64,000 bases of DNA from Chitinophagaceae bacterium (GTDB lineage: Bacteria > Bacteroidota > Bacteroidia > Chitinophagales > Chitinophagaceae): the NCBI GenBank assembly GCA_947458275.1, contig CANGYR010000002.1, positions 248,001 to 312,000 on the forward strand, written 5' to 3'. Positions within the stretch are counted from its first letter, which is position 1, and every line of letters starts with the position of its first letter. Positions 16,455 to 42,449 of this stretch are shown here, in pieces. A model generated the notes under the pieces. The model was not told the origin of the DNA and made no database searches. It was given only the letters and a program-made list of their open reading frames with translations. Both the position numbers and the translations under genes were made by a program.

Positions 16455-16526
<72 letters not shown>

Positions 16527-16609: not shown

Positions 16610-16637
16610 CACTTCAAAAGTTCTATTCATTCAATTG

Positions 16638-16718
16638 AATTTCCGGGGTGCTTTCAAATAGAAGGCTGAGAATAAACCCGTTAACCTGCTCAGGATAATG
16701 CCTGCGAAGGGAGAAGTT
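16638..16718 (+). promoter_or_regulatory. TPP (THI-box) riboswitch
   Basis: The conserved core of the thiamin pyrophosphate aptamer is present in order: GGGGTGC (16645-16651), GGCTGAGA (16664-16671), ACCC (16676-16679), ACCTG (16684-16688), GGATAATGCC (16693-16702) and GCGAAGGGAGAA (16704-16715). P1 can form between AATTTC (16638-16643) and GAAGTT (16713-16718). A competing helix joins 16635-16646 to 16749-16760 (12 positions, one mismatch and one wobble), which would exclude P1 and may be the expression platform. It precedes a TonB-dependent receptor by about 58 nt. Confidence 0.95.
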
Positions 16719-16776
16719 GCCAACACGTTGGCCATCTAAGGACTCACTCCGGAATTTCAGCAAAGTTTTATTTTTT

Positions 16777-32968: not shown

Positions 32969-34267
32969 TTACATGACAAATAAAAAATCTTTCAATGCTC
33001 CGAAATCGTTTTCAATTTTAGTGGATACTTTTTCTTTGTGTATGATATTTTGTACAGAGGGAGGCAAGTCTATTTTCTTTTCAATGATTGGTTCCACCAC
33101 ATCATAAAATTTAACAGGGTGAGCAGTTTCTGCAAAGATGCCTTTATCATTTGGATGCAAATCCAAATGCCTTTTGAGAGAAAGATAACCAACAGCACCA
33201 TGAGGATCAAGCAGATAGTTAAATTCTTTTTCGACCGATTTTATTGTGGCTGCAGTTTCTTCATCAGATATGCTGTAAGCAGTAAGTTTGGATGACAACT
33301 CTTTTGTTTGATGTTGAAATAATTCTAATATTCGAATGAAATTGCTGGGGTCTCCCACATCCATCGCATTGGAGAGAGTAGCCACTGCTTTCTTCGGCTT
33401 GTATTCATATGTTTTCATGAAATTGGGCACTACGTCATTGGCATTGCATGCTGCAATAAAGTGTTTAACGGGCAAGCCTGAAATGTTTGCCAGTAATGCC
33501 GAACAGATATTTCCAAAATTGCCGCTGGGCACACAGACAACGGGTGCATTTGTCTTATCAGGCCATTGCTTGTATGCAAAAAAATAGAAGAACTGTTGCG
33601 GCAGCCAGCGTGCCACATTGATAGAGTTGGCTGAAGTCAAAAATAATTTTTCATTTAAGTCATTGTCAGTAAAAGCTTTTTTTACCATTTGCTGACAATC
33701 ATCAAACGTACCGTTTACTTCAAGCGCATGGATATTACTTCCCAATGTAGTCAATTGCTTTTCCTGCACCATGCTGACTTTCCCTGATGGATATAAAATA
33801 ACCACATCTACCCCATCCACATTATAAAATCCATCAGCAACCGCACCGCCTGTATCACCCGAAGTTGCTACCAATACGGTAACTTTCTTATCATTCCCTT
33901 TTACAAAATGAGCCAGACATCTGCTCATGAATCTTGCACCAATGTCTTTAAATGCGAGGGTATTTCCATGAAACATTTCAAGCGCATACATATCCTCTTT
34001 TATTTTCACCAATGGAATAGGAAAATTAACTGTCTGCTTAACAATATCAAATAAAACATCCTCCGGTATACCATTGCCGACAAAGGGCCGAATTACCCGA
34101 AAGGCGATTTCCTCATTGGAAATATTATCAATATCGGATATCAGCGTTTTATCCAACGAAGGAATTTTTTCCGGAAAATACAAACCTTTATCCGGGGCCT
34201 GGCCTCTGATAGTTGCTTCTTTAAAATCTACGAATGCGTTTCTGTTATTTAGACTGAAGTAATTCAT
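32969..34267 (-). CDS. thrC: Threonine synthase
   Basis: 432 residues, PLP-dependent fold type II. Converts O-phosphohomoserine to threonine. The PLP lysine is Lys107 in NTLAFKDIGARF; the phosphate-binding loop TSGDTGGAVADG and the later PSGNFGNICSAL are visible. Begins with the family start MNYFSLNN. Last gene of thrA-thrB-thrC; 65 nt separate it from thrB, occupied by short repeats. Expression is presumably set by the thr leader peptide upstream of thrA. Confidence 0.96.
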   Translation of the reverse strand: MNYFSLNNRNAFVDFKEATIRGQAPDKGLYFPEKIPSLDKTLISDIDNISNEEIAFRVIRPFVGNGIPEDVLFDIVKQTVNFPIPLVKIKEDMYALEMFHGNTLAFKDIGARFMSRCLAHFVKGNDKKVTVLVATSGDTGGAVADGFYNVDGVDVVILYPSGKVSMVQEKQLTTLGSNIHALEVNGTFDDCQQMVKKAFTDNDLNEKLFLTSANSINVARWLPQQFFYFFAYKQWPDKTNAPVVCVPSGNFGNICSALLANISGLPVKHFIAACNANDVVPNFMKTYEYKPKKAVATLSNAMDVGDPSNFIRILELFQHQTKELSSKLTAYSISDEETAATIKSVEKEFNYLLDPHGAVGYLSLKRHLDLHPNDKGIFAETAHPVKFYDVVEPIIEKKIDLPPSVQNIIHKEKVSTKIENDFGALKDFLFVM

Positions 34268-34332: not shown

Positions 34333-35253
34333 TCAGCTATTGTCAACCACCACTCCCTCTCCTATTGTGGTGATGTAGGTTTTGTATTCAATATTCAGAC
34401 TCTTATATACTTTAATCATTTCCGCCTCTACAGCTTTAGCCACATCGATGTTTTCGCTAAACATAAACAGAGACGGGCCGCTACCGGCGATGCCTCCGCC
34501 CAGGGCTCCGGCTTCGAGACTCTTTTTCTTCACCTCATCAAATCCCGGTATTAGTTTACTTCTCACAGGTTCTACAATGACATCAATGAGAGATCTGCTG
34601 ATCAGGCCATAATCTGCTTTGATAAATCCCGCTATCAGCCCTGCTACATTGGCCCACTGGGTGATGGCACTTTTCAATGGCACTTCTTTGGGAAGAATCT
34701 GACGTGCATAAGATGTTTTTATTTCAATTTGAGGATGAACAATGTTTACATACATCGGAGGTATCGGCAGTTCAATGATATCCAGCGTGGCGGTATCTCT
34801 GATCAGGGTAAGCCCTCCGTAAATACAGGGAGCCAGATTGTCTGCATGACGAGAGCCGCTGGCCAGCGCTTCTCCCTCCATGGCAAAAGCCACCAATTCT
34901 TTTTTTCCGAAAGGTTTACCGAGCAATTCATTTGCTGCCACCACAATGCCCGTAGCACTGGCTGCACTGGAACCTATGCCACTGCCCGGCTTTATCTGTT
35001 TATCAATGATGACATCAAACCCGTTAGGATATTGCAATGCATCCATCATAGCCTGTAATGCAACGCCGGCAACATTTTGAGCCGGATCCTCCGGCAAATT
35101 ATATTTGTCAATATGCTTGATAGAAATACCTTTCTCCTCTCTTTTTGTCAACGTCATTACATCATACAATCCGCTCAGGGCAATACCCATGATATCGAAG
35201 CCGCAACAGAGATTGGCCACAGAGGCAGGAGATTTTACAGTGATGGTGTTCAT
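34333..35253 (-). CDS. thrB: Homoserine kinase
   Basis: 306 residues, GHMP kinase. Phosphorylates homoserine to O-phosphohomoserine. The GHMP ATP-binding motif PGSGIGSSAAS spans about 89-99; the N terminus VKSPASVANLCCGFD and the C-terminal GGGIAGSGPSLF are also typical. The start lies 9 nt from the thrA stop, so it is surely cotranscribed and probably translationally linked. Confidence 0.96.
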   Translation of the reverse strand: MNTITVKSPASVANLCCGFDIMGIALSGLYDVMTLTKREEKGISIKHIDKYNLPEDPAQNVAGVALQAMMDALQYPNGFDVIIDKQIKPGSGIGSSAASATGIVVAANELLGKPFGKKELVAFAMEGEALASGSRHADNLAPCIYGGLTLIRDTATLDIIELPIPPMYVNIVHPQIEIKTSYARQILPKEVPLKSAITQWANVAGLIAGFIKADYGLISRSLIDVIVEPVRSKLIPGFDEVKKKSLEAGALGGGIAGSGPSLFMFSENIDVAKAVEAEMIKVYKSLNIEYKTYITTIGEGVVVDNS

Positions 35254-35262
35254 TTGATAAGT

Positions 35263-37728
35263 TTAAACTTTTGATGCTCTGATGATATCGGCAAATACTC
35301 CGCTGGCTGTAACATCGGCTCCGGCGCCGGCGCCCTTAATGACAAGCGGCTGGTCTTTGTAACGATCGGTATAAAACAGCACGACATTGTCTTTCCCATA
35401 CAAATGATACAAGTCATTTTCCGGTTGGATATGTTGCAAACCCACGGATGCTTTACCGTGATTGTATGTTGCAACAAATTTCAATTTATGCCCATTGCTG
35501 TTAGCTTTGTCAAATAATTCTTTAAAATGCTCTTCCTGCATTGCCATCTCCTCATAAAAATTCTCAACGGTTCCTTTCATGCACGACTCGGGCATAAAGC
35601 TATTATTGGTGATGCTCTCCATTTCCAACTGCTCTCCTGCTTCTCTTGCCAGGATCATAATCTTTCTCATTACATCCGTGCCGCTGAGATCGAGGCGCGG
35701 ATCAGGCTCTGTGTATCCTTCTGCCTGTGCTTGTTTTACCACATCGGCAAATTTCTTTTTACCGTCGTAGTTATTAAAAACAAAATTGAGTGTACCGCTG
35801 AGTACCGCTTCAATCTTATGAATCCTGTCACCGCTGTGCATTAAATCATTGATGGTGCCTATGATGGGCAAACTTGCTCCAACATTGGTTTCAAACAAAA
35901 ACTGTGCATTGTATTCCCGGGAGAGGTCTTTTAATTTTTTGTAGTTCTGATAAGAAGATGCCGCGGCAAGCTTGTTGCAGGCCACTACGGAGATGCTTTT
36001 CAGCAAGAGTCTGTGGTATACATCCGCAACAATATTGCTTGCAGTAACGTCGACGAATACAGTGTTTCTTAGATTAAGACGAATAATTTCCTCCACAAAA
36101 AGTGAAAGATCAGCCATAGGTGCATTCTCCAGCGCTTCCTGCCAGCTGCCGGTATCAATCCCTTTTTCATCTATCAGCATTTTACGTGTGTTGCACAAAC
36201 CAATCAATCTGATATTCACACGCATTTTTTCCTGAAGGAAACCTATCTGCCGGTTGATTTGCGCGAGCAGACGCTGACCCACATTTCCTGTGCCGGCAAG
36301 GAAAACGTTCAACTGTTTGTACGTTTGTTCGAAAAACTCTTCATGCAACACATTGATTGTTTTGCTGACATCAGTAGTGTTGATTACAGCGGAAATATTT
36401 TTTTCTGAGGAGCCCTGAGCAATGGCTCTGATATTAATACCGTTTCTACCCATTGAACTGAACATACGTCCACTTACACCCGGGTGATTGCGCATGCTTT
36501 CTCCGACAGCAGCAACGATAGACAATCCTGATTCAATTTTTGGCGGATCAAGTTGTTGCAATGCCAATTCATTGGCAAATGCAAAATCAATAGCATTGCG
36601 TGCTTTAAGAGCCGCATTGCTTTCTATAGCCAGCGTAATTGATTGCTCCGATGAACTTTGAGTTATCAATATGATTTTAATTTTTTCATTGCTAAAAACC
36701 TCAAACAATCTCTTTGAGAAACCGGGAATTCCGTTAATATCATTTCCTTCCAATGTAATCAGGCAAATGTTGTTGATGCTTGAAATACCTGTTACCATTT
36801 CTGCGTCTTTGTCAAGGTTTTGTTCACCCTCCACTTTACCGTTGGATATTTTTGTTCCATAATCATTTGGGGCAAAAGTATTTTTAATCCAGACCGGAAT
36901 ATTTTTATTCATAACGGGCTGGATGGTGGGCGGATAAATCACTTTCGCTCCGAAATGCGACAATTCCATGGCCTCCTGATAGGAAATGTGAGGTATGATT
37001 TTAGCATTGCTGCTGAGACGGGGATCTGCAGTCATCATACCGCTTACATCGGTCCATATCTCCAGGTTGGATACATTCAATGCGGCAGCCACAATAGCGG
37101 CGGTATAATCGGATCCGCCTCTTCCGAGCGTGGTGGGGATGCCGTTCTTGTCAGATGCAATGAATCCTGGAAGGATATAACACTGATGGTTAAACGAAGC
37201 TACAAATTCAGCGATGCGGGCATCCGTAACGGAAAAATCCACAGCAGCCGTCCCGAAGGAAGAATTGGTGACAATCAGTTCACGACTGTCTTTCCACAGA
37301 GCATCCAAGCCATTTTCTTTGCAGGCCTGAGCAATGATTTGGGAAGAAAGCCATTCTCCGTATCCGGCTATGCGGTCTTTCGAACGCGGTGTTATTTCTC
37401 CTATGACAAAAAAACTATTCAGCAGAGATTTCAGCTCATCGATACTGTCTTTGATTAAACTGAGTAAAGCAGATTTGTTTTTATCAGAAATGAGCTCGTT
37501 GATACAATCAATGTGACGCTGCTCAACCGTATTGAGTTTTTCAAAGTAAGATGATTTTTTTTCGGCAGCGAGGGTGCCGGCATCCAGCAATAAATCCGTC
37601 ACTCCTCCCAGGGCAGATACCACTACAATGACCTGACTTTTTTTATTCGCCTCTCTTACTATGGAGATTACTTTTCTGATATTCTCCGCATTAGCTACAG
37701 ATGTACCTCCGAATTTTAATACTTGCAT
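35263..37728 (-). CDS. thrA: Bifunctional aspartate kinase / homoserine dehydrogenase
   Basis: 821 residues. The N-terminal aspartate kinase (1 to about 290; KFGGTSVANAENIRK, later GRGGSDYTA) is followed by ACT-type regulatory domains (about 310-455) and the NAD(P)-dependent homoserine dehydrogenase (about 460-821; FLAGTGNVGQRLLAQI, FETNVGASLPIIGT, YTEPDPRLDLSGTDVMRK). It catalyses the first and third steps from aspartate to threonine. Family members are inhibited by threonine; the ACT domains fit that, but it is not proved here. First structural gene of the operon, 74 nt after the leader peptide stop. Confidence 0.97.
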   Translation of the reverse strand: MQVLKFGGTSVANAENIRKVISIVREANKKSQVIVVVSALGGVTDLLLDAGTLAAEKKSSYFEKLNTVEQRHIDCINELISDKNKSALLSLIKDSIDELKSLLNSFFVIGEITPRSKDRIAGYGEWLSSQIIAQACKENGLDALWKDSRELIVTNSSFGTAAVDFSVTDARIAEFVASFNHQCYILPGFIASDKNGIPTTLGRGGSDYTAAIVAAALNVSNLEIWTDVSGMMTADPRLSSNAKIIPHISYQEAMELSHFGAKVIYPPTIQPVMNKNIPVWIKNTFAPNDYGTKISNGKVEGEQNLDKDAEMVTGISSINNICLITLEGNDINGIPGFSKRLFEVFSNEKIKIILITQSSSEQSITLAIESNAALKARNAIDFAFANELALQQLDPPKIESGLSIVAAVGESMRNHPGVSGRMFSSMGRNGINIRAIAQGSSEKNISAVINTTDVSKTINVLHEEFFEQTYKQLNVFLAGTGNVGQRLLAQINRQIGFLQEKMRVNIRLIGLCNTRKMLIDEKGIDTGSWQEALENAPMADLSLFVEEIIRLNLRNTVFVDVTASNIVADVYHRLLLKSISVVACNKLAAASSYQNYKKLKDLSREYNAQFLFETNVGASLPIIGTINDLMHSGDRIHKIEAVLSGTLNFVFNNYDGKKKFADVVKQAQAEGYTEPDPRLDLSGTDVMRKIMILAREAGEQLEMESITNNSFMPESCMKGTVENFYEEMAMQEEHFKELFDKANSNGHKLKFVATYNHGKASVGLQHIQPENDLYHLYGKDNVVLFYTDRYKDQPLVIKGAGAGADVTASGVFADIIRASKV

Positions 37729-37802
37729 AAATATGTTGTTAGAAAATTAAATGACCGATTAATTGAGTAAGACTTTTGTCTTTTGACAGCCTAAGCCCGC
37801 GG

Positions 37803-37874
37803 TTAATATGATACTTTGCAACCCTGACGGGTTGTAATAGTTGGAGTGATTGTTATAAGACAAATTTGTATCAT
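37803..37874 (-). CDS. thrL: thr operon leader peptide (attenuator peptide)
   Basis: 23 codons from ATG (37872-37874) to TAA (37803-37805). Residues 7-15 read ITITPTITT; overall 5 Thr and 5 Ile codons occur in 23, the composition expected for a ribosome-stalling leader of a threonine operon (compare thrL of enteric bacteria). A strong hairpin (CAACCC/GGGTTG, 37829-37834 with 37819-37824) overlaps codons 14-19, just after the Thr run. A longer helix can pair the start region (37868-37877) with the stop region (37805-37814), 10 bp without mismatch. Shortage of charged Thr or Ile tRNA would stall the ribosome before the hairpin. No strong T-tailed terminator is visible between leader and thrA, so the exact mechanism is open. 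Confidence 0.82.
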   Translation of the reverse strand: MIQICLITITPTITTRQGCKVSY

Positions 37875-37924
37875 ATTTTAATTTAAAAATTAAACTAAGA
37901 GCTTAAAATTAATCATAAATCATC

Positions 37925-37945
37925 AAAAAACAACCCAAAGGGGTT
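37925..37945 (-). terminator. Terminator-like hairpin upstream of the thr leader
   Basis: On the minus strand AACCC (37941-37945) pairs with GGGTT (37932-37936), 4-nt loop, followed by G and six T (37925-37930). It precedes the leader peptide by about 50 nt. It may be part of the operon's control or simply block antisense transcription out of the divergent H-NOX gene. Confidence 0.4.
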
Positions 37946-38077
37946 AACAAAATAAGCGCAAAGCTTTTGTTTAAGTATTTTAAACCCAAAATAACCTTTC
38001 TTAATCGCACTAAACCGATATCATTTGTTTGTATATTTACTAAAATTGAATTAAAAATAGCATAAAACTTTATCCTT

Positions 38078-38620
38078 ATGTATGGAATAGTTAATAAAGC
38101 GATTGAGGACTTGGTAAAAGAAAATTTTGGAGAAGAAAAATGGGATGCCGTAAAAAAAAGAAGCGGTATTGATGTTGATTTTTTCATAAGCAATGAGCCG
38201 TATAATGATGACATCACTTACAAGCTTGCCGGAGCTATTTCTGAAGAGATGAATGTAGAAGTGAAAACCGTTCTGCAGCTATTGGGTGAATGGTGGATTT
38301 TACGAACAACAAAAGAAAAATATGGTGGACTGTTGCAAGCCGGAGGAAACAATCTAAAAGAATTCTTAACTAACCTGCCTGTTTTCCATAATCATATCAT
38401 GATGATATACCCTAAACTCACTCCTCCTGAGTTCAAAGTGAGCGATATAGAAGAAAAAAGTATACATATTCATTACTATTCCAAAAGAGAGGGCTTGCAG
38501 GAGTTTGTGAGAGGGCTTTTGGTTGGACTTGGGAAAATGTACGAAACACCTGTAGAGATAATGCTGCTTGAGAGCAGAGACGATGGCAGTAATCACGAAG
38601 TATTCAAAGTAAGCTGGTAA
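38078..38620 (+). CDS. H-NOX heme nitric oxide/oxygen sensor protein
   Basis: 180 residues, a complete stand-alone H-NOX domain. It starts with the family sequence MYGIVNKAIEDLV. The proximal heme ligand is His104 in NLPVFHNHI, aligned with His105 of soluble guanylate cyclase beta-1. The heme-propionate motif YxSxR is Tyr133-Ser135-Arg137 in YYSKREGLQEFVRG. H-NOX proteins bind NO through ferrous heme and control a partner kinase or cyclase. The next gene, 7 nt away, is a kinase starting with the HNOBA domain, the natural H-NOX partner. Whether it also binds O2 cannot be judged without aligning the distal pocket. Confidence 0.95.
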   Translation: MYGIVNKAIEDLVKENFGEEKWDAVKKRSGIDVDFFISNEPYNDDITYKLAGAISEEMNVEVKTVLQLLGEWWILRTTKEKYGGLLQAGGNNLKEFLTNLPVFHNHIMMIYPKLTPPEFKVSDIEEKSIHIHYYSKREGLQEFVRGLLVGLGKMYETPVEIMLLESRDDGSNHEVFKVSW

Positions 38621-38627
38621 AAGAATA

Positions 38628-41003
38628 ATGTCATTTCAATTAACCTTTCAACAAGAGCAGTTCAATAGACTCCATCCGTTTTTCATGATCATTAATGAAG
38701 AACTGATTATTGAATCTAAAGGACATTCCCTTGAAAAAATAATCGGTGTATCTAAAGAAAAATTTGCCGATTGCTTCATCATAAAAAGACCTCATTTAGA
38801 CAGTATTAATAAAGAGTCATTACAAAAAATCTGTGGCGGATTGTTATTAATCGAAACCATTAACCACCCAAAGATTACACTCAGAGGTCAATTGGAATTA
38901 TTAGACGAAAACAGCAATTTTATTTTCATCGGCTCCCCATGGATTTTATCAACGGAAGAACTCAATAAAACCGGACTTACCTTTAAAGAATTTGCCGCTC
39001 ACGATTCTCTGTTGGATATGTTGCACATTAATCATTCTTCCAGTATTGTAAATAAAGAGTTGAAAGAATTACTTGGTCAGGTTAACAAACAAAAAGAAGA
39101 ATTAAAAACATCTGCCGAAAAAATTAAAGACTATGCACTTTCATTACAAGAAAGCAATAAACGATATGAGCTTGTTTCCAAGGCTACCTCAGAAGCTATA
39201 TGGGATTGGGATATTATAAACAACACTATTTTTTTCGGAGATGGATTTTCAAGAGTTTTTGGATATAAATTAAATGATATTCAGCATGATTTAAAATGGT
39301 GGAATAATAATGTGCATGCAGATGATTATCAGAAGATCATGACTAATATGGAAAAAGCATTCGAAAGCAATTCAGATATCTGGGAAGCAGAATACCGATT
39401 CAGAAAAGCTGATGGAAGCTATGCCATATCGCATGACAAGGCCTACATATTAAGAAATGAAACCGGCCATGCCATTAGAATAATTGGTGCTGTTCAGGAT
39501 ATCACCAAGAAAAAAAGAGAAGAGCAGCATTTGAAGTTGCTGGAATCTGTGGTAGAGAAAACCAATGACAGTGTTATCATCATGTCAGCGAAAGAAAATC
39601 TTCCTATACTTTATGTGAACAAAGCTTTTACCAAAATCACAGGGTATTCCAGCGAAGAGGCAATTGGTCAATCTCCTATAATGCTGAGTGGCCCAAAGTC
39701 TGATGCTCAAATAGTGGAGCGAGTCATTTCAAGTATCCTTAAATTTGAAAGTTCAGAAGCTACGGTCATTGCCTATAAAAAAAACAAGGAAGAAATATGG
39801 CTTAATTTCACCCTCAATCCGGTTACAAATCAAAGAGGTCGTATCAGTCACTGGATATCCATTCAGAGGGATATCACAGAAATGGTAAATGCCAACCGAG
39901 AAATTGAAAAACAAAAAAAATTCACCGATGATATCCTGAACAACATACCCGCAGATATTGCAGTGTTTGATCAAAACCACAATTATCTGTACTTAAACCC
40001 AACAGCAATTAAAGATGAAGAAAGAAGACAATGGCTGATTGGGAAAAACGACTTTGATTATGCTGCATATTTTGGCATTGATGATACCATGGCAAAAAAA
40101 AGAAGAGCATTATATGATCATGCAGTGAATGAAAAAAAGGTTGTCGATTGGGTTGACGAGCATAAAACAAAGGAGGGTGAAACAAAATATATTTTAAGGA
40201 ATTTTTACCCATATTTTGAAGGCGAGAGATTAAAGTACATGATTGGATATGGCATTGATATAACACAGACCAAAATTGCAGAAAATAAACTGCAAGAGGC
40301 ACTTGACGCACTCAAAGCAGTAAATATTGAATTGGAACAATTTGCCTACATCGCTTCTCATGATTTACAGGAGCCATTGAGAATGGTTAGCAGCTTTCTC
40401 TCTCAACTGGAAAAAAAATACAGTTCAGTAATTGATGATAAAGGAAAAGAATACATACATTATGCTGTTGATGGAGCTAAGCGAATGCGTCAGATTATTC
40501 TGGACTTACTTGAATTTTCCAGAGTTGGAAGAACAGACGAAACTTTAAAAGAAGTTGACTTGAATTCCATCATCAATGAAATCATTTTGCTGCACAGCAA
40601 GCAAATAGAAGAATTGAAGGCTACTGTAAAATTTGATACACTGCCGGTTATAAATACATTCAAGTCGCCTGTCAGACAGGTTTTTCAGAATCTGATAAAC
40701 AATGGTTTGAAATATCATAGAAAAGGAGTACAACCCATAATTAACATAGAGGCAATAGAATACGAAGATGCTTGGCAATTTTCAATTAAAGACAATGGAT
40801 TGGGAATTGATGAGCAATACCACGAGAAGATATTTGTAATATTTCAGCGTTTACACAATCGGGATGAATATTCGGGTACCGGAATTGGGCTGGCAATTAC
40901 TAAAAAAATCATTGAGAATTTGGGTGGAAAAATTTGGCTAACATCTGCACCCAATGAAGGAAGTACTTTCTTCTTCACAATAAAAAAACAAGAAGGTTTA
41001 TAG
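38628..41003 (+). CDS. HNOBA-PAS-PAS-PAS histidine kinase, H-NOX partner
   Basis: 791 residues, soluble. N-terminal HNOBA domain (about 5-145: FNRLHPFFMIINEELI, KRPHLDS, LRGQLELL, FIFIGSPWILSTEELNKTGL, HDSLLDML), then a coiled-coil signalling helix (about 148-185), three PAS domains (about 185-297, 300-425, 430-555; two end in DITKKKREE or DITEMVN-like caps) and a kinase core. The phospho-acceptor is His578 in YIASHDLQEPLR; the ATPase has FQNLINNGLKYH, DNGLGID and GTGIGLAI. Without a receiver domain it must pass phosphate on. The H-NOX gene lies directly upstream and a REC-containing kinase directly downstream, so the three probably form one NO-responsive pathway. Confidence 0.93.
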   Translation: MSFQLTFQQEQFNRLHPFFMIINEELIIESKGHSLEKIIGVSKEKFADCFIIKRPHLDSINKESLQKICGGLLLIETINHPKITLRGQLELLDENSNFIFIGSPWILSTEELNKTGLTFKEFAAHDSLLDMLHINHSSSIVNKELKELLGQVNKQKEELKTSAEKIKDYALSLQESNKRYELVSKATSEAIWDWDIINNTIFFGDGFSRVFGYKLNDIQHDLKWWNNNVHADDYQKIMTNMEKAFESNSDIWEAEYRFRKADGSYAISHDKAYILRNETGHAIRIIGAVQDITKKKREEQHLKLLESVVEKTNDSVIIMSAKENLPILYVNKAFTKITGYSSEEAIGQSPIMLSGPKSDAQIVERVISSILKFESSEATVIAYKKNKEEIWLNFTLNPVTNQRGRISHWISIQRDITEMVNANREIEKQKKFTDDILNNIPADIAVFDQNHNYLYLNPTAIKDEERRQWLIGKNDFDYAAYFGIDDTMAKKRRALYDHAVNEKKVVDWVDEHKTKEGETKYILRNFYPYFEGERLKYMIGYGIDITQTKIAENKLQEALDALKAVNIELEQFAYIASHDLQEPLRMVSSFLSQLEKKYSSVIDDKGKEYIHYAVDGAKRMRQIILDLLEFSRVGRTDETLKEVDLNSIINEIILLHSKQIEELKATVKFDTLPVINTFKSPVRQVFQNLINNGLKYHRKGVQPIINIEAIEYEDAWQFSIKDNGLGIDEQYHEKIFVIFQRLHNRDEYSGTGIGLAITKKIIENLGGKIWLTSAPNEGSTFFFTIKKQEGL

Positions 41004-41016
41004 ATTCAATCTTTTA

Positions 41017-41024
41017 TAAATTTG
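41017..41024 (+). promoter_or_regulatory. -7-like element next to the REC-PAS-kinase start
   Basis: Perfect TAAATTTG only 6 nt before the ATG at 41031. If active, the transcript would be nearly leaderless and allow expression independent of the upstream kinase. Confidence 0.3.
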
Positions 41025-41030
41025 CTACTA

Positions 41031-42449
41031 ATGCGAAAAGATAAAAACAGTCTAAGCATATTGATTGTAGAAGACAATCCCGGTGATTATGCCCTTATCA
41101 GTGATTATCTGGAAGAGCAAATCAGCAACCCGGATACTGAGCATGCGCGAAATTTTTCCGAAGCCGAAAAAAAAATGTCCGATAAACATTTTGATGTCGT
41201 TTTACTTGACCTTACCCTGCCCGATAAAACCGGTGAAGATTTGATCAGAGATGCTGTAGGAAAAAGCAAAGGTGCTCCGGTAATTGTTTTAACCGGCTAT
41301 GCAGACATTGAATTCAGTATTCGTTCTCTTTCACTTAAAGCTTCAGATTACTTATTAAAAGATGATATCAATGCTTCCTCTTTATACAAAAGCATCATTT
41401 ACAATATAGAAAGGAAGAAATCCAGTCAATTGTTAGAAGAGTCAGAGAGAAGATACAGTAATCTCTTCCAAATGAGTCCCCAGCCAATGTGGATTTTTGA
41501 TATGAAAAATTATCAGTTCCATCAGGTAAACAAGGCTGCAATTGAAAATTATGGTTATACGGAGGAAGAATTTCTAGAAATGAGTTTGTTTGATATTGTT
41601 CCAGAAGTAGAAATAGATAGTGTGAAGGAAATAGACAGCAATCTTGAATCAATCAAGGAGAATTTGTACAAAGGAAGATTTAAACACATAAAAAAAACAA
41701 AGGAAATCATTGATGTTGATATTTACAGTAATCTTATAACCATAAATGATAAAATTTATCAGTTTGTAATCTCCATTGACGTTACCGAAAAAGTATTGTA
41801 CGAACATAAAATTACCAAAGCCATCATTAAAGCTCAGGAAGACGAGCGATATGAGATTGGCGCTGAATTGCATGATAATATTTGCCAAATCCTGGCCAGC
41901 AGTCAGCTAAGTCTGGAGTTGCTATCAGACAAGACACCGGAATCTTCTTTAAAATGGCTGATGAGGGCTAAAGAGCAAATCAATCTTGCATTAAATGAAA
42001 TCAGAAAAATATCTCACAGACTTGCTCCGGCATTTTTTGATGAGTTAACTTTAGAGGAGGCCCTGAATAAACTGCTTTCCAATTTCAATCAAACCAATCA
42101 ATATAAAATCAATTTCAATTTTGATAAATCATTAGGCGACTTGCATCTCAAAACTGATATTGAGCTTAATTTATACAGGATTGTACAGGAACAGCTCAAT
42201 AACATCTTAAAATATGCAAAAGCATCTGTTATCAATATTGAGATGTCCACAGTTAAAAACAAACTCTTTCTGAGTATTTCAGATAATGGAGTTGGATTTG
42301 ATACTGTCTCAACCGAAAAGGGCATAGGTCTGTCAAATATGAAAAGAAGAGCAGAGTTATTCTCTGGAAGCTTTGAAATATTTTCTTTTCCCGGCAAAGG
42401 TTGTGAAGTGGTGATATACATCCCTCTTGACCATGCTGCCGGAGATTAA
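41031..42449 (+). CDS. REC-PAS-HisKA_3-type hybrid sensor kinase
   Basis: 472 residues from ATG 41031 (a TTG 9 nt earlier adds nothing conserved). An N-terminal receiver domain (about 8-125) has acidic residues Glu14-Asp15 and the phospho-acceptor Asp60 in VVLLDLTLPD. A PAS domain follows (about 140-260; NLFQMSPQPMWIFDM), then a NarX/DesK-like dimerisation helix with His281 in IGAELHDNICQ, and an ATPase (VQEQLNNILKYA, DNGVGFD, GIGLSNMKRR). It would receive phosphate from the upstream kinase and signal onward through its own kinase core; the final target is not in the window. It ends 10 nt from the convergent CAP gene. Confidence 0.9.
   Translation: MRKDKNSLSILIVEDNPGDYALISDYLEEQISNPDTEHARNFSEAEKKMSDKHFDVVLLDLTLPDKTGEDLIRDAVGKSKGAPVIVLTGYADIEFSIRSLSLKASDYLLKDDINASSLYKSIIYNIERKKSSQLLEESERRYSNLFQMSPQPMWIFDMKNYQFHQVNKAAIENYGYTEEEFLEMSLFDIVPEVEIDSVKEIDSNLESIKENLYKGRFKHIKKTKEIIDVDIYSNLITINDKIYQFVISIDVTEKVLYEHKITKAIIKAQEDERYEIGAELHDNICQILASSQLSLELLSDKTPESSLKWLMRAKEQINLALNEIRKISHRLAPAFFDELTLEEALNKLLSNFNQTNQYKINFNFDKSLGDLHLKTDIELNLYRIVQEQLNNILKYAKASVINIEMSTVKNKLFLSISDNGVGFDTVSTEKGIGLSNMKRRAELFSGSFEIFSFPGKGCEVVIYIPLDHAAGD

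Follow-up and report, generated by a model that had tools for sequence, protein, structure and literature searches.

A short leader ORF in front of the thrABC operon of a Chitinophagaceae bacterium has counterparts in many Bacteroidota, where such ORFs probably serve as a threonine gauge. We propose, as a tentative reading held at somewhat less than even confidence, that the translating ribosome senses Thr (and Ile) on this leader and would in this way control thrABC without a strong intrinsic terminator. The proposal is built on comparison with relatives: the leader itself, its control codons, a covarying hairpin (P2), a CATAT motif placed behind it (box B) and the lack of a strong terminator all point in this direction. 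The first-pass annotation of this DNA had missed both this CATAT and a second copy that relatives have close to the leader start codon (box A).

The DNA that was analyzed, called here the window, is a whole stretch of 64,000 nucleotides on contig C2 of the organism's own 2.9 Mb assembly (G000:C2). On its minus strand the leader ORF runs from the ATG at 37874 to the TAA at 37805-37803. Its 23 codons plus TAA give the product MIQICLITITPTITTRQGCKVSY, with 5 Thr and 5 Ile, and it ends 74 nt ahead of thrA, whose start is at 37728. A Thr/Ile-rich leader peptide with ten Thr/Ile codons had already been described before thrA, and this description is confirmed by its recurrence in relatives. The end of the ORF had been placed correctly at 37803, while the start given, 37877, is one codon 5' of the ATG (3 nt off); the AAT found there is part of a start-stop helix and lies outside the ORF. 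Downstream on the same strand we find thrA, coding for a bifunctional aspartokinase-homoserine dehydrogenase (35263-37728; Pfam PF00696, PF00742 and PF03447), a homoserine kinase gene of the GHMP kinase type (34333-35253; PF00288 and PF08544), whose name thrB we infer from the operon context, and thrC, coding for threonine synthase (32969-34267; PF14821 and PF00291). Divergent from the thr operon, the plus strand carries an H-NOX gene (haem-NO-binding, PF07700; 38078-38620), followed in the same gene row by two ORFs named by eye, a PAS-type histidine kinase-like one (38628-41003) and a response-regulator/kinase-like one (41022-42449). Elsewhere in the window a TPP riboswitch (16634-16729, plus strand) adjoins a tRNA gene (16455-16526, minus strand), as detected with Rfam.

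A search by ThrA similarity gathered 80 loci with up to 2 kb of upstream DNA, 79 of them with upstream sequence (L069 has none and was dropped). Most of these relatives are Chitinophagaceae, the closest being a Ferruginibacter MAG (L033) with a ThrA 92% identical. In most of them a Thr/Ile-rich ORF occupies the corresponding position, and its last residues before the stop codon are often TTTR, TTIR or TTL. An alignment of 71 rows (A1) was made of the window and 70 of the 79 loci, leaving out L049 and L105 and also L035, L070, L078, L089, L090, L095 and L100, the last seven because they had no P2 or box. The covariance model built from it (R1) covers the Thr codons, P2 and what follows; since it contains box B, its matches partly select for box B. 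R1 matched 93 of 100 loci, namely the window, 21/21 further loci from genomes of the family (of 29) and 71 of the 78 ThrA-similarity loci, most of which had been used in building it. Outside the 100 sources searched were L005, L007, L008, L013, L017, L023, L027, L029 and L050, most of which share a contig with another locus. The set of 90 family loci used below was drawn from the 93 matches; L046, L049 and L106 fell out by the landmark rules, though CATAT is visible in all three, and the thrA start set by rule in this collection may be too early by a few nt, as in the window, where the difference is 6 nt.

Across 195 genomes of the family, thrA was found in 126 (E up to 1e-15) and an R1 match in 117 (E up to 0.1). 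By script, the match lies just before thrA, from an overlap of 2 nt to a distance of 203 nt, in 112 of the 126 thrA-bearing genomes. Three more matches (G053, G139 and G074) precede a diverged or chimeric thrA-like ORF, and six weak extra ones (E 0.019-0.097), in or over unrelated ORFs, are chance matches. In G053 and G139 (loci L318 and L319) the thr leader is intact, P2 and CATAT included, and the thrA-like ORF behind it has diverged strongly, with no KFGG motif at its start. In the window's genome nothing credible was found beyond the thrA site, the second match (E 5.65) being located in a coding region. A sample of 395 genomes of the phylum gave 47 matches (E up to 0.1), 11 in the window's family and 36 in others. 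We examined 19 of these 36 (L189-L207, from families f13, f14 and f33, the last belonging to another class) and identified a Thr-rich leader in 19/19, with thrA directly after it in 18 and another ORF first in L196. The last 12 leader residues of the 90 family loci hold on average 5.63 Thr and 2.40 Ile, versus 0.57 and 0.95 expected from the ThrA composition, and at least four Thr were found there in 83/90 leaders versus 21 of 11238 ThrA 12-mers; the 90 leader cores fall into 50 clusters at 85% similarity, and therefore not all of them are independent.

The leader of the window (175 nt) folds better than 200/200 dinucleotide shuffles (z -3.35), with helices P1 and P2 both in the MFE structure. 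P2 (CAACCC-GTCA-GGGTTG, 37819-37834, minus strand) corresponds to the hairpin that had been noticed over codons 14-19. Its arms lie at 37834-37829 and 37824-37819, the 5' arm holds the last two Thr codons, and the hairpin recurs in relatives. Covariation was assessed by a swap test, which compares own with swapped partners and is blind to pairing between two invariant segments. For the P2 arms of the 90 family loci it gave z -16.9, with 0/40 swaps as good. In another alignment (A2) two-sided changes affect four of the six pairs and 95.2% of the cells are paired, with 0/500 shuffles as high, counts that lean towards P2 because A2 was aligned to a model containing it. By this covariation P2 is a real hairpin. 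The stop codon is located in its loop in most family relatives; the leader of the window stops after P2, inside box B.

The fate of P1 was different. This start-stop helix of 10 bp (AATATGATAC/GTATCATATT, 37877-37868 with 37814-37805, minus strand), proposed in the first-pass annotation, is present in the window and, one pair shorter, in its nearest relative L033. Family-wide support is absent: start region and box B do not covary in the 90 loci (z -1.2, 5/40 swaps as good), which rules out P1 as a general feature. When thrA upstream regions are compared, as that annotation had suggested, the Thr/Ile run and P2 are kept, and the pairing of the start-stop arms has no support over the family. 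After box B comes P3 (GGGC-TTAG-GCTG, 37787-37798, minus strand), a weak hairpin of 3 bp that has a UUCG loop in L033. It is likely to exist, judging by the swap test (z -9.5, 0/40 swaps as good in the 90 family loci). It is thermodynamically weak in the window's family (mean z -0.27), a value that speaks little for a stable hairpin there, and clearer in f33 and in genus g7; no stable P3 was seen in most f14 loci. Further on is P4 (AAGAC-AAAA-GTCTT, 37769-37782, minus strand), a variable hairpin with no T-run behind it. Pairing of the P2 3' arm with downstream segments was no better than with swapped partners (z +2.4 and +0.5, 90 loci); with no alternative partner for this arm, no RNA switch linking the position of the ribosome to the output is visible. 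By eye, no invariant pairing partner of CATAT was found.

In the window, box B (CATATTA, 37804-37810, minus strand) lies about 10 nt after P2, and the TAA of the leader overlaps its end. No row of A1 (71 in all) departs from its ATA core, and this core is present in 72 of the 79 loci chosen by ThrA similarity alone (L049 and L105 counted); an alignment anchored at [CT]ATA[CT] is circular for those letters and was left unused for box B. Counted from the first base of the stop codon, an exact CATAT lies at a distance of 16-21 nt in 67/90 family loci and of 16-18 nt in 18/19 loci of other families, and the motif is kept in f13, f14, f33 and f75. In leaders that run past P2, the one in the window among them, the stop codon comes nearer to box B or inside it, so P2 and not the stop codon fixes the place of the box. 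The f33 loci L304-L307 have two copies of CATA[T/C] behind P2, at stop+9 and stop+17, and then a P3 with other arms (such as TAGGA/TCCTA).

Box A, measured from the first base of the start codon, is an exact CATAT at 18 nt in 41/90 family loci, compared with 0/192 control ORFs at 17, 18 or 19 nt; the rule that picks the leader start favours ATG or GTG and a length near 29 codons and makes no use of CATAT. In other families CATA is located 17-19 nt after the leader start codon in 8/19 loci. The box is not exact in about half of the loci, and in the window it is absent, with TATAACA at its place (CATACA in L033). Some f14 leaders read box A in another frame, so its conservation is at the nucleotide level and not in the peptide, and a conserved peptide motif (HIIS) is ruled out as the main reason for its presence.

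A candidate -7 promoter box, TAATTTTA (37904-37911, minus strand), has one mismatch to TAnnTTnG, which we take to be the consensus of this box. TAnnTTnG stands upstream of the leader in 42/90 loci versus 10.4 in shuffles, so that a promoter is likely upstream of the leader, with a transcription start that is predicted only. On the 5' side of this likely promoter there is a T-tailed hairpin (37946-37931, minus strand), and no gene ended by it was seen on the minus strand. The suggestion that it could compete for the CAACCC strand had to be abandoned, given its absence in L033 and its place 5' of the likely promoter.

The same hairpin is the sole T-tailed terminator found within 37650-38100. None was found between the leader ORF and thrA, in agreement with what had been noted before, and the same situation recurs in relatives. 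We rated terminators by an ad hoc score that combines stem and T-tail. The thr leader of the window reaches 12.5 and the best of the 90 thr loci 22.6; 0/90 attain 24.7, the score of the weakest trp leader. P4 is below the terminator range by the same score. His and trp leaders of relatives score 24.7-32.7 in 12 of 13 cases, the exception being the his locus L115, and the ilv leader L127 has a classical look by eye.

The scoring was extended to 98 more regions upstream of thrA, made up of 75 stretches and 23 loci, with some from the genomes of L189-L207. Thr leaders were identified by rule in ten families (f12, f13, f14, f17, f18, f33, f75, f76, f96 and f121) and in none of the other 25 families sampled. 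The f12 leaders L240, L241 and L300 have T-tailed terminators (26.7-32.7), and thr leaders with CATA[T/C] after the stop have, among these 98 regions, no terminator above 18.3. R1 had missed 14 thrA loci of the family. Three of them (L321, L328 and L333, genus g7) have a Thr leader with CATAT and L326 has TATATCA; in L324 and L330 (family f1, genus g31) a Thr/Ile leader is combined with a strong terminator (30.9 and 31.7), L331 (f1) has a Thr leader with neither strong terminator nor CATAT, and seven have no Thr leader. CATAT is absent from the 260 nt before thrA in 5/5 thr leaders of the terminator type (L240, L241, L300, L324 and L330). A clean split between terminator and CATAT is contradicted by leaders that lack a strong terminator and have no clear box either: L222, L242, L243 and L244 in f17 (the last with CATAC only), L214, L217, L252 and L311 in f14, L277 in f96, L212 in f18, L285 in f121 and the mentioned L331 in f1. 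In L322 and L329 (genus g8 of the family), with no Thr leader by rule before thrA, both upstream regions contain a TTAGTTAGGC..GTTAGC stretch, possibly another kind of control.

The his leaders give another view of the role of CATAT. Of 75 hisG loci from the class, 54 have a His leader by rule (L116 and L117 were dropped, having no leader before the picked ORF); 43/54 score at least 24 and 11/54 are without a strong terminator. Of those with a strong terminator, 11/43 have CATAT within 45 nt of the stop versus 2.7 expected, mostly at a somewhat greater distance (18-30 nt), five of the 11 being close kin in f14. Among the 11 terminator-less his leaders, L115 and L396 have the layout of the thr type, L363 has CATAT at stop+5 and eight are without CATAT. 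The leader of L115 (f9, G217), MQFFSIHTSHLFHHSS, terminates within a hairpin loop and carries CATAT at stop+19 and CATA at start+18; that of L396 (f65, G672) also stops in a hairpin loop, with CATAT at stop+21. With these two loci the idea of a module restricted to thr was dropped. Box A cannot be judged in his leaders, where the His codons themselves give CAT. CATAT as a strict substitute for the terminator is weakened too, since the thr leaders fit (5/5) but 11/43 his leaders with a strong terminator also have it; we prefer to see in it a pause or factor site and not a plain substitute. Such a site may belong to attenuators, with a stricter place in the leaders that have no terminator. Three his leaders of f17 (L353, L380 and L381) end in HHSS, have their stop codon within the loop of a hairpin, and show neither strong terminator nor CATAT; a ACACACCC..CCGGTGA stretch follows the leader in all three, perhaps another output element.

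Put together, these features would be compatible with the following sequence of events. Whether the ribosome is slowed on the Thr codons or reaches the stop codon would decide whether P2 forms, and the state of P2 would be read while the RNA polymerase is at or just past CATAT, a putative site for pausing or for the binding of a factor. When Thr is plentiful, Rho (a candidate) or another factor would release the paused polymerase before thrA; when Thr is short, the polymerase would run on into thrA. The sign of this response is assumed from physiology. Many relatives would have another such site in the twin CATAT located 18 nt beyond the leader start, where the polymerase is possibly held until the first ribosome loads. 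We infer a non-intrinsic output step, and we take it to be transcriptional mainly because an intrinsic terminator precedes thrA in some relatives. CATAT lies at a near-fixed distance from P2 and is followed by P3 in the window's family and in f33. The 60 nt before thrA are poor in G (C 0.189 and G 0.111 in the 90 loci, versus C 0.186 and G 0.191 before 118 other ORFs), weakly compatible with a Rho-dependent switch in the leader. On a wider scale, we put forward with less confidence, as a possibility, an amino-acid attenuator widespread in Bacteroidota, with the P2-CATAT module as output (thr, and his in few lineages). The twin CATAT motifs of many members, about 18 nt after the start and about 17 nt after the stop, would lie just ahead of an initiating and a terminating ribosome, where polymerase pausing or a trans factor might read the position of the ribosome.

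The chief rival is a control of translation or mRNA stability, in which the stalled leader ribosome alters the translation of thrA or the decay of its mRNA and CATAT is the site of a nuclease or of an RNA-binding protein. The lack of a strong terminator in the thr loci suits this explanation, and so does the location of both CATAT boxes in relatives which, taking the size of the ribosome footprint, are just beyond the edge of a ribosome sitting on the start or the stop codon. It is a serious competitor and still an unlikely one: no covariation reaching the thrA start region was found (box B with GCTG to thrA+20, z +1.7; P3 with downstream, z +5.0), and the intrinsic terminator at the same place in some relatives fits transcriptional control better. 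A classical attenuator whose weak or unusual terminator was missed by our score (P4, P2 or, in f14, a T-run after the P3 place) seems to us quite unlikely. It is true that folding of the 45 nt after GCTG, the place of P4, is on average better than that of shuffles (z -0.80, mean of 88 loci), that mononucleotide shuffles score lower than the thr loci (9.5 against 14.0, a difference owed in the top rows mostly to P2), and that many f14 loci, the strongest case, have a run of six T about 20 nt after CATAT, preceded by a weak hairpin at best (L228 scores 13.4). However, the score of the weakest trp leader is matched by none of the 90 thr loci, no T-run follows the hairpins in the f33 loci examined, there is no pairing between segments 2 and 3, and P2 as a terminator would have the wrong sign, forming when the ribosome stalls early.

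Control at the level of DNA, with the two CATAT direct repeats as operators of a transcription factor and the leader adding to it, is improbable. Many relatives do have two copies of one short motif, but the leader start codon fixes the place of box A and P2 that of box B, and the distances between the boxes and to the promoter-like box vary. Finally, short ORFs and hairpins are common by chance, and yet an ORF without function is scarcely credible in view of the recurrence beside thrA in several families, the Thr enrichment and the covariation. Comparison refutes this reading for the family; the copy in the window, taken alone, could be inactive.

The ribosome-sensing thr leader preferred here can be set beside known systems. 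The thr, trp and his leaders of E. coli are ribosome-mediated transcription attenuators of amino-acid operons. Like them, the Bacteroidota leader codes for a peptide rich in end-product codons directly upstream of the biosynthetic operon, with the control codons in the 5' arm of the first hairpin and the stop codon in its loop. Unlike them, it has neither 2:3 pairing nor a strong T-tailed 3:4 terminator, and it has the conserved CATAT; because both the 2:3 pairing and the intrinsic terminator were looked for and not found, we do not class it as a classical attenuator. A Thr/Ile leader peptide of the thr operon is also the mark of RF00506, which we take to be the Thr_leader family of Rfam. This family had no match in the window (gathering score) nor in six relatives (E up to 1), and no Rfam family at all matched the thr leader in these sequences. 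The his and trp leaders of relatives and the thr leaders of f12 and of f1/g31 come from the same phylum and have the same kind of leader peptide, those of f12 and g31 at the same gene, but they carry strong T-tailed terminators, unlike the type found in the window. In the TopAI-YjhQ switch of E. coli a role of Rho has presumably been suggested; at the thr leader Rho action is a candidate only. As outlined in part of PMC12121999, that switch is a uORF on which ribosome stalling controls downstream expression, and it senses antibiotics, whereas the thr leader would sense an amino acid. Within the phylum, Bacteroid-trp (RF01692) appears in the relevant portion of PMC2864571 as a putative cis-regulatory RNA of Bacteroidetes, by its name located before trp genes; it had no match in the window or in the six relatives. 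For Flavobacterium psychrophilum, of the same phylum, attenuation by leader peptides before amino-acid operons was proposed from structured 5' regions, and the section on cis-regulatory RNAs of that article names neither thr nor CATAT nor a type without terminator (PMC9723704).

In the open-access literature, as covered by titles and the start of abstracts and with older comparative attenuation studies set aside, we found no description of a thr leader of this kind in Bacteroidota. One such older work, Vitreschak 2004, is reportedly a comparative study of attenuation. Another, Lopatovskaya 2010, is cited as such in a passage of PMC4833913. An earlier mention of the element in these comparative studies is possible.

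Attenuation in textbooks ends in an intrinsic terminator, and the thr leader of Bacteroidota, across several families, has a short motif and no strong terminator. Given that some relatives have a classical terminator at the same gene, the output could be tested by swapping modules between them. The result would bear on the coupling of transcription and translation in Bacteroidota.
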